A DNA stretch of 64,000 nt, taken from NCBI GenBank assembly GCA_902825775.1, contig CADECF010000003.1, positions 173,800 through 237,799 on the forward strand, in the 5' to 3' direction. This document shows positions 21,489-28,893 of this stretch, one piece after another. The notes under the pieces were generated by a model. It searched no databases and was not told the origin of the DNA. It saw only the letters and a list, made by a program, of their open reading frames with translations. How positions within the stretch are numbered: position 1 is the first letter of the stretch; the number at the start of each line of letters is the position of its first letter. The position numbers were made by a program, and so were the translations under genes. Origin of the DNA: an uncultured Lysobacteraceae bacterium. Its GTDB lineage: Bacteria; Pseudomonadota; Gammaproteobacteria; Xanthomonadales; Xanthomonadaceae.

Positions 21489-21598
21489 CCGTCATCCCAG
21501 CGAACGCTGGGACCCATTTGATCTTGCTCTCGTTTTACCTGGAAATTGAAAAGCATAAGCAAAATCAAGTTGGGTCCCAGCGTTCGCTGGGATGACGG
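21489..21598. repeat. palindromic repeat, class F, overlapping the pbpC start
   Basis: Arms CCGTCATCCCAGCGAACGCT plus GGGACCCA and complement enclose about 55 bases. The flanks just inside the arms (GATCTTGCT on the left, CATAAGCAAAAT on the right) match the two ends of the GIY-YIG element at 27844-28253, so this looks like an internally deleted copy. The pbpC start lies inside it. Confidence 0.85.
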
Positions 21599-26841: not shown

Positions 26842-27834
26842 TCAGAGTGTGACCAGCGTCCTGCCGTGCGAGCCGCCGGCCAGCATCCGCGCGAAGACCT
26901 CCGGCAACTGCTGCAGCGTCGCCTCGCGGGTGCAGATGGCGTCCAGGTGCGCCGGTTTCCAGTCCGTGGCCAGCCGGCGCCAGATTTCGTCGCGGATGTC
27001 CCGCGCCGTACCGGCCGAAGCCACGCCGAGCAGGGAGACGCCGCGGATGATGAACGGCATTACGGTGGTGGGCAGGTCGTGCGTAGCAGCCAGGCCCGCG
27101 CTGGCCACGTTGCCGTACGGCGCGGTTTGCGCGAGCAGGCTGGCCAGCATCGGCCCGCCGACGTTGTCCAGACCACCGCCGAAGCGCGTGGATTCCATCG
27201 GCCGGGTGGTGGAGAGGGCGTCCCGGCCCAGTACCTCGTGCGCCCCGATGGCGGTGAGGTAATCGGTTTGGTCGGCCTTGCCGCTGACCGCGTGCACCTG
27301 ATAGCCGGCGCTGCTGAAGATGTCGATCGCCAGCGAGCCGACGCCGCCGGTGGCGCCGGTGACGGCCAGCGGACCGAGTTCCGGCGTCTGCCGGTTTTCG
27401 ATCATGCGGAACAAAGCAAGCGCAGCGGTGAAGCCGGCGGTGCCCAGGATCATGCTCTCGCGCAGGCTCAATCCTTTCGGCAGCGGGATGGTCCACTTCG
27501 CTTCCAGCCGCGCGTATTGCGAGTAACCGCCGTCGCGCGTTTCGCTCAGGCCCGAGCCGGTCACGAGCACGGCATCGCCTTCCTTGAATTTGGGGTCGGC
27601 CGAAGCGACGACGTGGCCGGCTACGTCGATGCCGCCGACGAGCGGGAACTTGCGCAGGATCTTGCCCTGGCCCGTTCCGGCCAGCGCGTCCTTGAAGTTG
27701 ACCGAAGAGTAGGCGGTCTCGATCACGACTTCGCCGGGGGCGAGGTCGGCGAGCGCGATCTCTTCGATGCCGCTGCGGTAGCCGGCGGTGTCGTTGTGGA
27801 TGCGGAATGCGTTGAAACGGCTGGGGATCGTCAT
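26842..27834 (-). CDS. acuI: NADPH-dependent acrylyl-CoA reductase/quinone reductase (AcuI/YhdH family)
   Basis: 330 residues of the medium-chain dehydrogenase fold. The N-terminal GroES-like domain lacks zinc ligands. The nucleotide domain carries VTGATGGVGSLAIDIFSSAGYQVHAVSGK, in which a Ser/Lys pair suits NADPH. The family (YhdH in E. coli, AcuI in Rhodobacter) reduces acrylyl-CoA to propionyl-CoA and detoxifies acrylate-like electrophiles; older names call it quinone oxidoreductase. The ATG at 27834 is only ten bases from the end of the GIY-YIG element, so its promoter lies in or beyond that element. pilH follows on the same strand after 65 bases. Confidence 0.9.
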   Translation of the reverse strand: MTIPSRFNAFRIHNDTAGYRSGIEEIALADLAPGEVVIETAYSSVNFKDALAGTGQGKILRKFPLVGGIDVAGHVVASADPKFKEGDAVLVTGSGLSETRDGGYSQYARLEAKWTIPLPKGLSLRESMILGTAGFTAALALFRMIENRQTPELGPLAVTGATGGVGSLAIDIFSSAGYQVHAVSGKADQTDYLTAIGAHEVLGRDALSTTRPMESTRFGGGLDNVGGPMLASLLAQTAPYGNVASAGLAATHDLPTTVMPFIIRGVSLLGVASAGTARDIRDEIWRRLATDWKPAHLDAICTREATLQQLPEVFARMLAGGSHGRTLVTL

Positions 27835-27843
27835 CTCTTCAAC

Positions 27844-28253
27844 CCGTCATCCCAGCGAAAGCTGGGACCCATTTTGATCTTGCTATCCGTTTAAAGGATA
27901 TCAGGGTACAGGTCCCGCCATTCTGGATTTTCGCTCTCGACCAGCCGTATTTTCCAAAGCCGTTTCCAGGCTTTCATCGCCTTCTCGCGGGCTATGGCAG
28001 GCGCCATCTCGGAGTGAATTTCGTACCAGACAAGCGCGTGCACGGCATATTTCTTAGTGAACCCGCCCTGTCAGCCCGCTCTTATGCTGAAATATTCGTG
28101 AGGGCAGGTCCGATGTGACGCCTATATAGAGCGTGCCTCTTGGGCTGCTGGCCAGGATGTAAACGCAAGGTAGCCGTTCGCGCACGCTCGTCTTTCCCAG
28201 ATCGGAGTGGGACATAAGAGCAAAATGGGTCCCAGCTTTCGCTGGGATGACGG
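27844..28253. mobile_element. 410 bp element with 33 bp terminal inverted repeats carrying a GIY-YIG gene
   Basis: The left end reads CCGTCATCCCAGCGAAAGCT then GGGACCCATTTTG, and the right end is its exact complement (33 bases). Between them lies a single frameshifted GIY-YIG nuclease gene that almost fills the space: its stop is 15 bases inside the left repeat and its ATG 5 bases inside the right one. No target duplication is evident. The class F repeat at 21489-21598 shares both ends, including bases inside the terminal repeats. Confidence 0.75.
27891..28215 (-). pseudogene. GIY-YIG endonuclease-domain protein, frameshifted
   Basis: From ATG 28215 the frame reads into CVYILASSPRGTLYIGVTSDLPSRIFQHKSGLTG, a typical single-domain GIY-YIG protein, and then stops at 28054-28056. 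Shifting by one base near 28058-28066 restores the family C-terminus: FTKKYAVHALVWYEIHSEM, AIAREKAMKAWKRLWKIRLV and NPEWRDLYPDIL to a TAA at 27891. The joined product would be about 107 residues, full family length. One inserted base (or two lost) has therefore inactivated an otherwise intact gene, unless it is a sequencing error. Solo GIY-YIG proteins of this kind are common but poorly characterised. Confidence 0.88.
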
Positions 28254-28299: not shown

Positions 28300-28893
28300 T
28301 TAACGCAATTCCTTGCGCCGCTTCTCGTCCATCCACTTCGAAGCCTGCGCAGGTTCGTACGCTCGCAGCCACGAAAACAGCGCATCGATATCGTCGCCAT
28401 GCCACAGATCGGCGCGTTGGTCGGCATGGAGGAAGCGCTCGGCGACCATGCGATCCATCATCGCCGCCAGCGGCTGGTAGAAGCCGTCGACGTCGAAGAA
28501 GGCGCAAGGCTTGTCGCCCAAGCCGAGTTGTCGCCAAGTCAGCATCTCGAACATCTCGTCCAGCGTGCCGAAGCCGCCGGGCAGGGCGACGAAGCTGTCG
28601 GACAGGTCGAACATGCGCGCCTTGCGCTCGTGCATGTTGGCGACGGTCTCGAGGCGGGTCAGCCCGCGATGCGCGACTTCCCACTCGACCAATTGATTCG
28701 GAATCACGCCTACGACTTCGCCGCCGGCTTCCAGCGCGGCGTCGGCGACGATGCCCATCAGGCCGACGTTGCCGCCGCCGTAGACCAGCGCGAGGTTTTC
28801 ATTGGCGATGCGGGTGCCGAACGCGGCGGCGCGTTCGGCATACACGGGTTTGTTGCCGGCGTTGGAGCCGCAGTAGACGCAGATCGATTTCAT
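28300..28893 (-). CDS. LOG-family protein (TIGR00730; cytokinin riboside monophosphate phosphoribohydrolase type)
   Basis: 197 residues with the Rossmann-like LOG fold and its signature PGGFGTLDE, plus the N-terminal MKSICVYCGSNAGN and YGGGNVGLMG. LOG enzymes split nucleoside monophosphates at the N-glycosidic bond; in bacteria many act on AMP or related nucleotides and the true role is often unclear. The start is ATG 28893; upstream in-frame sequence is only class H repeat. It follows lpdA on the same strand, with a repeat in between, so it may be the last gene of the suc operon. Confidence 0.92.
   Translation of the reverse strand: MKSICVYCGSNAGNKPVYAERAAAFGTRIANENLALVYGGGNVGLMGIVADAALEAGGEVVGVIPNQLVEWEVAHRGLTRLETVANMHERKARMFDLSDSFVALPGGFGTLDEMFEMLTWRQLGLGDKPCAFFDVDGFYQPLAAMMDRMVAERFLHADQRADLWHGDDIDALFSWLRAYEPAQASKWMDEKRRKELR

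Follow-up and report, generated by a model that had tools for sequence, protein, structure and literature searches.

A GIY-YIG nuclease gene between inverted CGTC-type REPs, a candidate mobility partner of the CGTC REP superfamily

Described repeat systems and the unit of the window

The 410-bp unit described here, a GIY-YIG nuclease gene between two inverted repetitive extragenic palindromes (REPs) in a 64,000-nucleotide stretch of the genome of an uncultured Lysobacteraceae bacterium (contig CADECF010000003.1; the whole stretch is called the window), has its closest described counterparts in REPtrons, in which a REP-associated tyrosine transposase (RAYT) gene of the HUH Y1 type accompanies GTAG-tagged REPs and their inverted pairs (REPINs), and in the CGTC REP superfamily. 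The latter is defined, in the parts of Di Nocera et al. (2013, PMC3733652) drawn on here, by a terminal CGTC or TGTC tag, a stem of 8-9 bp starting with AT, a loop of 4-5 nt, a CCA-like tail and frequent dimers; it includes dRS3 of Neisseria and RPE-6 and RPE-4 of Rickettsia, and is reported from five phyla. The same parts leave the mobilising agent open and state that no gene for a tyrosine transposase was found between CGTC sequences.

The unit is like RAYT REPtrons in that a low-copy gene is framed by inverted REPs, in that many gene-less pairs have similar ends, in the class-specific pairing of gene and repeat, and in being mostly chromosomal in the present material; it differs from them in having a nuclease and not an HUH tyrosine transposase, a CGTC and not a GTAG tag, and paralogous full-unit copies. 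It is probably a broken, gene-bearing master copy of a CGTC REP family, organised like a REPtron, in which a nuclease unrelated to the RAYTs would mobilise its own REP class.

The arms of the unit are exact 33-nt inverted repeats (27844-27876 and 28221-28253) and reach 38 nt at one mismatch (27844-27881 and 28216-28253); the gene between them is on the minus strand, 5 bases from the exact arm on the start-codon side and 14 bases on the stop-codon side. The initial annotation had described a nuclease gene as the sole passenger between exact 33-base repeats: the repeats and the start-codon distance are as it gave them, its stop-codon distance (15 bases) needs correction, and the passenger is present but frameshifted, its N-terminal half (ATG at 28215) and C-terminal half (stop at 27891) lying in different frames, so the window copy is broken. 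The arms (CCGTCATCCCAGCGAAAGCTGGGACCCA) have the tag, hairpin and CCA-like tail of CGTC REPs, are often paired in the genome, are intergenic at the sites in the window, where location was looked at, and have the high copy number of the superfamily: 151 genomic copies (72 + 79) when up to 2 mismatches are allowed, against 0 for a reversed control pattern. The repeat core has 4 matches in the window at up to 3 mismatches and 0 in shuffled windows, which together with the 151 genomic copies excludes a chance origin of the window repeats. What sets the unit apart from the superfamily, as those parts of PMC3733652 describe it, is the partner gene proposed here.

Three small GIY-YIG genes are present in this genome (a PF01541 search finds four places, the fourth being a uvrC-like long frame), and at all three a pair of inverted palindromic repeats encloses the gene, with a different class at each: an AGC/GCT stem in the window, CCGTCATTCCCGCGAAGGCGGGAATCCAGCGACTT at locus L004 and TGTCATCCCGAACGCAGTGAGGGATCTACTT at L001. 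The L001 gene is open, and that of L004 is broken, as is the window copy (L003). In both broken genes the frame is lost at almost one spot, directly before a GFTK[KR]Y motif; a programmed frameshift, considered since the two break near one codon, is not supported, because most relatives are open in one frame.

As in RAYT REPtrons, gene-less REP pairs occur alongside the gene-bearing unit, in this genome, where the pairs were read. Among 20 inverted pairs of the window class picked from the genomic copy list, 19 measure 87-155 bp and one 620 bp; TTGATCTTG continues the left REP in 11 of the 20, AAAATGGGYCCC is present on the right in 13, and the GIY-YIG unit has likewise both, which gives the REPINs the look of gene-less derivatives of a parent element. 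The 620-bp pair (L219 299-919; G000 C14) encloses a patchwork of other repeats, and the own-genome search finds no GIY-YIG match inside it. In another genome (G003), AGC-class and CGGC-class REPs are often in direct orientation, about 46-65 bp apart, possibly as a composite repeat.

Inverted-repeat arms in the nuclease clade

The arm score is that of the best inverted repeat, without gaps, that the two flanks of the matched domain form (match +1, mismatch -2), with flanks of 250 bp in sample 1 and of 200 bp in samples 2 and 3 and in the neighbouring-gene control; a score of at least 14 was taken as an arm pair, and at least 20 as the stricter set. Pooled over three samples, inverted-repeat arms are found at 163 of 219 loci of the clade to which the window gene belongs. 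Sample 1 comprises 73 small GIY-YIG loci from 60 genomes (the genome of the window and order-level relatives), with clades set by motif and by eye and nine loci outside clades A, C and D, several of them wrongly framed, omitted from the clade counts. In clade A, that of the window gene, 26/33 loci reach the cut-off (one of the seven below it, L068, is at a contig edge), whereas in clade D, which is YhbQ-like, the maximum score is 11 and none of the 27 loci is flanked. Sample 2 was drawn from 299 phylum genomes searched with profile A1, of which 79 match at 1e-12; 110 of the 145 listed places entered the sample (five already in hand, one at a contig edge and 29 weaker or partial matches being omitted), and among the 109 with enough flank, 81 score at least 14 and 62 at least 20. 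Internal stops are absent from 131 of the 145 listed places. Sample 3 consists of the top 80 among 571 loci from a named multi-phylum collection, which may contain species already in samples 1 and 2; of the 77 with enough flank, 56 score at least 14 and 42 at least 20, the flanked loci including records titled Planctomycetes, Nitrospira, Deltaproteobacteria, Rickettsia endosymbiont, Neisseria and Parcubacteria (most of them metagenome-assembled).

Shifted windows are flanked in 0/212 cases in sample 2 and 0/141 in sample 3 (0/353 in all); they often fall in coding sequence, and neighbouring genes (open reading frames of at least 90 codons at identical loci) are a fairer control, with 4/338 flanked, one of the four at or next to a second GIY-YIG copy (L128). 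Flanks of different loci, when paired, reach the cut-off in 6% of sample 2, because REP classes are shared. A weak control is given by 20 long-frame loci labelled uvrC by frame length and motif, with a maximum score of 11 and one flank window intragenic. A genome as rich in REPs as this one, with 151 copies, might sometimes place them on both sides of a small gene by chance, but this explanation is practically negligible in view of the neighbouring genes and shifted windows, the unflanked YhbQ-like genes, and the recurrence of one gene clade, across many phyla, beside other REP classes.

The arms are hairpins. Among the 122 of the stricter set, 93 have a perfect stem of at least 6, as compared with 7/122 shuffled arms, and the window arms and most sampled unit arms carry CGTC and not the GTAG of RAYT REPtrons. 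The initial annotation had proposed to test whether such flanks lie at a constant distance from genes of this subfamily in relatives; the flanks recur in all three samples, and the distance is short but variable: in sample 2 the arms of the 81 flanked loci are 3-165 bp away from the matched domain, with a span of 344-633.

Other GIY-YIG lineages have repeats of their own. The four clade C loci (YxGH[TS]D) score 8, 8, 15 and 17, and in two of them, L005 (1391-1413 / 1791-1813) and L007 (1273-1287 / 1861-1875), the inverted repeats are of another type (CCGTTCGTGSTGAG...), which suggests a putative second nuclease-repeat pair. An unclassified lineage (L011) has a non-CGTC inverted repeat (CCCGACGATCACTCGCTTA..., 1437-1466 / 1709-1738; score 21).

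Phage or plasmid cargo was considered and rejected: one query protein matches 0 of 50,697 phage records and 33 of 72,556 plasmid records, several of them chromosome-sized. Four of five fetched plasmid records score 21-33 (a gonococcal record, Azospirillum, Sinorhizobium meliloti and Novosphingobium), and Planktothrix scores 12. On plasmid AZO_p3 of Azospirillum lipoferum (L354) the REP-flanked gene lies between sufB and sufC, and on the Planktothrix plasmid (L356) a GIY-YIG gene without clear CGTC arms lies between an MmeI-like restriction gene and the DISARM gene drmA.

The GIY-YIG catalytic domain has a conserved Tyr, Tyr, Arg and Glu. The protein of these units is stand-alone, of about 95 residues, with PF01541 above cut-off, and in the A1 alignment, numbered by its first row, Y7, Y18 and E65 are invariant and R28 nearly so, by which its sequence places it in the GIY-YIG superfamily. 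Among seven such proteins scanned for domains, six match PF01541 alone and one (L193) also T5orf172; no match to Y1_Tnp, the domain of the RAYT transposases, and no other transposase domain is found among the seven, and the scan finds no second domain in the 95 residues. In a tree of 59 sample-1 proteins, all 29 clade-A rows are on one side of a branch (support 100/98) and the YhbQ-like genes are on a separate one (95/94). The predicted fold is confident (predicted local distance difference test score, pLDDT, 95), and its nearest solved structures by Foldseek, at weak E-values (best 2.3e-3), are UPF0213, Slx1, which processes branched DNA according to the title of its structure entry, and the N-terminal domain of UvrC; a sequence profile match to 1zg2 (1.2e-5) also links it to UPF0213. 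The protein shares fold and catalytic motif with these nucleases, but the window clade lies outside the YhbQ-like clade in the tree and differs from it in having flanks, which are absent from the 27 YhbQ-like genes. Of 18 pairs, mostly chosen at 80% DNA identity or more and several with dS near saturation, 17 have a ratio of nonsynonymous to synonymous substitution rates (dN/dS) of 0.01-0.18 (the eighteenth is not computable); the gene is under strong purifying selection.

Repeat classes, gene presence and the cassette at the acuI site

Different GIY-YIG gene lineages carry different REP classes. In the 15 genomes with at least two units scoring at least 20, the arms of different units match at 0.40 of the full score (34 pairs), and those within a unit at 0.89, which is high by selection. 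Between genomes, protein similarity and arm similarity are correlated (Mantel r 0.49; 2,000 permutations, sd 0.05, maximum 0.18) in 112 of the 122 units scoring at least 20 (those without stops and of sufficient length), a correlation to which shared descent of whole units adds. At the site upstream of acuI that the window unit occupies, the two arms of one site are alike and the class varies by species, with AGC stems in G000, G011, G022, G024 and G026 and CGGC stems in G001, G002 and G003. The genome-wide AGC/CGGC counts are 84/23, 3/4, 49/2, 3/29 and 6/10 in the former and 12/43, 7/32 and 91/104 in the latter, so that the class at the site is the genomic majority in five of the eight (narrowly in G003). 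A further class, B, is present 149, 80 and 11 times in the three genomes that carry a class-B gene (that of G003 being broken), and at most one copy in each of 56 others among the 60.

Abundance of the repeats also follows the gene. The pattern GTCATYCCNGCGNANGCNGGRAYCCA, which represents one class group, was counted in the 60 genomes: the median is 23.5 in the 24 with the gene and 0 in the 36 without it (Mann-Whitney p 1.6e-8), and within the family 43 (17 genomes) versus 0 (19 genomes; p 8.8e-7). That RAYTs or other transposases move the CGTC REPs in trans, the GIY-YIG unit being a mere passenger, is very improbable: Y1 transposases do occur in 43 of the 60, and REP count rises weakly with them (rho 0.29; Mann-Whitney p 0.04), but the median count is 0 in the 24 genomes that have Y1 without the gene, as in the 12 that have neither, and 21 in the five that have the gene without Y1 (0, 0, 21, 36 and 43), near the 26 of the 19 genomes with both. 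A passenger would be expected neither to match the REP class nor to be one gene across many phyla, and the absence of CGTC-flanked tyrosine transposase genes from the account of Di Nocera et al., in the parts cited above, also speaks against this possibility. Gene-bearing genomes are usually rich in CGTC REPs of the counted class, and gene-less genomes are mostly without them, whether or not they have Y1.

The TIGR00730 gene upstream of acuI is kept in 21 of 30 fetched acuI loci. The GIY-YIG gene is present at nine of these 21 syntenic sites, with both arms at eight (G019 has none). Of the 12 sites without the gene, seven are too tight for a REP pair, the gap measuring -4 to 57 bp; by the pattern used, three with longer gaps (G008, G031 and G014) show no REP and two (G023 and G013) one lone REP each. 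In most relatives, then, the REP-gene-REP cassette has been gained or lost at this site as one unit, in the comparison of filled and empty sites that the initial annotation proposed. That annotation had named homologous genes of relatives lacking such flanks, or flanks inserted independently at this locus without the gene, as outcomes that would make the association a matter of chance; instead, the flanks recur in the clade and the cassette is mostly whole or absent. At this site the cassette is not a recent hop; it is an old resident common to nine compared genomes: the seven acuI-site genes in the tree (the broken window copy and a fragment in G001 not being included) fall in one clade of eight (95/89), and therefore the insertion is old and inherited.

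Copies at other places are found as paralogs. In G176, L168 and L182 are homologous starting at the left arm and ending about 27 bp outside the right one, the sequences being unrelated beyond; in G227, that between L184 and L204 runs from 11 bp beyond the left arm to 41 bp beyond the right; L193 (of G113) and L184 match just about to the arms; and L184 and L191 have more flank in common and may represent a larger duplication. No target-site duplication was found (mean length 0.66, versus 0.61 +- 0.11 in the null, n=90). The unit thus has the inverted repeats of a DDE insertion sequence, with no duplication or transposase domain found; it is like a parent insertion sequence with its miniature inverted-repeat transposable elements (MITEs) in that gene-less derivatives have the same ends as an element with a gene, and differs in these absences and in ends that form hairpins by themselves.

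Two other explanations of the association concern the nuclease itself. The gene might be a homing parasite of REPINs, cutting and copying itself into the spacer between inverted REPs that something else spreads. It does occupy the position of a REPIN spacer, and REPs of the GTCATTCCCGCG class lie inside the spacers of three window-class REPINs (L205, L211 and L217; G000 C1, C3 and C7), so REPs nest into such spacers. Homing endonucleases of the GIY-YIG family (of the I-TevI and I-BmoI type) share the catalytic domain and a mobile DNA context; they home into one allelic site and usually have an added DNA-binding module, whereas the window-clade protein has 95 residues and no second domain, is REP-framed and intergenic, and has paralogs at different places. 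We regard a homing parasite as unlikely, because REP abundance tracks the gene in both the main class group and class B, because empty orthologous sites are mostly without REPs, as if the cassette and not the gene alone had been gained, and because no alternative mobiliser was found among the Y1 transposases, the group looked for. That the nuclease is a host factor tending REPs, resolving their cruciforms or regulated by REPs in its own mRNA, with no spreading, is distinctly improbable: it would suit the purifying selection, the long residence at the acuI site and the fold like Slx1 and the UvrC N-domain, but not the whole-unit paralogs at different places, the several class-specific copies per genome, or the patchy presence in 79 of 299 phylum genomes. 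We therefore prefer a nuclease that spreads its own REP class, and the features of the window unit (Table 1) are discussed in these terms below.

Table 1. Coordinates of the GIY-YIG unit, its neighbours and a gene-less REPIN in the window
Feature	Position	Strand	Basis or remark
Left arm, CGTC-type REP extended inwards (CCGTCATCCCAGCGAAAGCTGGGACCCATTTTGATCTT), with the CGTC tag at the outer end	27844..27881	+	sequence; 151 genomic core copies
Right arm, same REP inverted	28216..28253	-	sequence
N-terminal half of GIY-YIG nuclease (ATG at 28215; ...CVYILASSPRGTLYIGVTSDL...), frame lost before GFTKKY motif	28054..28215	-	open reading frame and profile
C-terminal half of GIY-YIG nuclease, other frame (GFTKKYAVHALVWYEIHSEM...NPEWRDLYPDIL stop)	27891..28082	-	profile match
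Downstream neighbour, YhdH/AcuI acrylyl-CoA reductase family gene	26842..27834	-	TIGR02823 above cut-off; AcuI equivalog model NF051456 below cut-off
Upstream neighbour, TIGR00730 (LOG-like) gene	28300..28893	-	with acuI marks the orthologous site in 21/30 fetched acuI loci
Gene-less REPIN of the window REP class, inverted pair, spacer ends like inner ends of the GIY-YIG unit	21490..21598	.	repeat-core search

A possible nuclease-driven cycle and its meaning

The proposed cycle would start from a gene for a nuclease of about 95 residues between two inverted copies of the REP that the nuclease serves. From the nearest folds and the action of Slx1 on branched DNA, we infer that the enzyme may recognise and cut the hairpin or cruciform that REPs of its own class form (CGTC tag, stem and CCA-like tail); its substrate would probably be single-stranded or cruciform DNA at the replication fork. 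Host repair would then copy or join the released pair of REPs elsewhere, whether or not the gene lies inside it, with no target-site duplication. The gene copy would mostly stay put and the REPINs multiply, as with the RAYT transposases and GTAG REPs, through an unrelated enzyme.

Several observations weigh against this proposal. Two of the three small GIY-YIG copies in this genome are broken, and for 56 of the 219 loci of the clade the arm score stays below the cut-off; among the 122 pairs scoring at least 20, 13 are oriented the opposite way and 16 could not be oriented. The class at the acuI site is the genomic minority in G024 and G026 and nearly tied in G011. G002, a congener of genomes with a class-B gene, has 79 class-B REPs and no class-B gene detected, its nuclease partner having been either lost or missed. 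The main-group count is 0 in three gene-bearing genomes (G037, where the unit has other arms, and G043 and G044, without a clear CGTC pair), and 7-11 REPs are present in G015, G027 and G030, in which no gene was detected; moreover, these correlations across relatives ignore phylogeny. Homology of paralogs does not always end exactly at the REPs (11-41 bp beyond). No covalent intermediate is known from the GIY-YIG mechanism, so joining must fall to the host. Finally, no transposition event was observed, and action of the nuclease on REPs is inferred; of the earlier suggestion that a nuclease spreads its own flanking palindromes, the systematic association stands, and movement by the nuclease itself is conjectural.

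The agent that spreads CGTC REPs has been missing, and the nuclease is a good candidate for it. Whether stand-alone GIY-YIG nucleases are in general the mobility enzymes of the CGTC REP superfamily is a wider claim, for which we see the chances as evenly balanced: the only gene would be that of a 95-residue, structure-specific cutter of REP hairpins, joining would be left to host repair, and nuclease lineages would co-evolve with their own palindromes. If so, the gene-less offspring would include dRS3, RPE-6 and GTCATTCCCGCGAAAGCGGGAATCC-type repeats of Pseudomonadota, Planctomycetota, Nitrospirota, Rickettsiales and candidate phyla. No report tying GIY-YIG genes to REPs was recognised among the matches listed in the open-licence PMC literature, paywalled papers and preprints lying outside that scope.

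On present evidence the system is REPtron-like with an unrelated enzyme, and it would be categorically new if the nuclease were shown to move the repeats. A class-matched, one-gene nuclease partner makes the question of what moves CGTC REPs directly testable, with a small protein and short oligonucleotides. If the nuclease cuts its REP, it would represent a class of mobile-DNA enzyme distinct from the HUH, DDE, tyrosine/serine and Cas1 enzymes, and a second, independent and long-lived partnership of nuclease and palindrome beside that of RAYT and REPIN.
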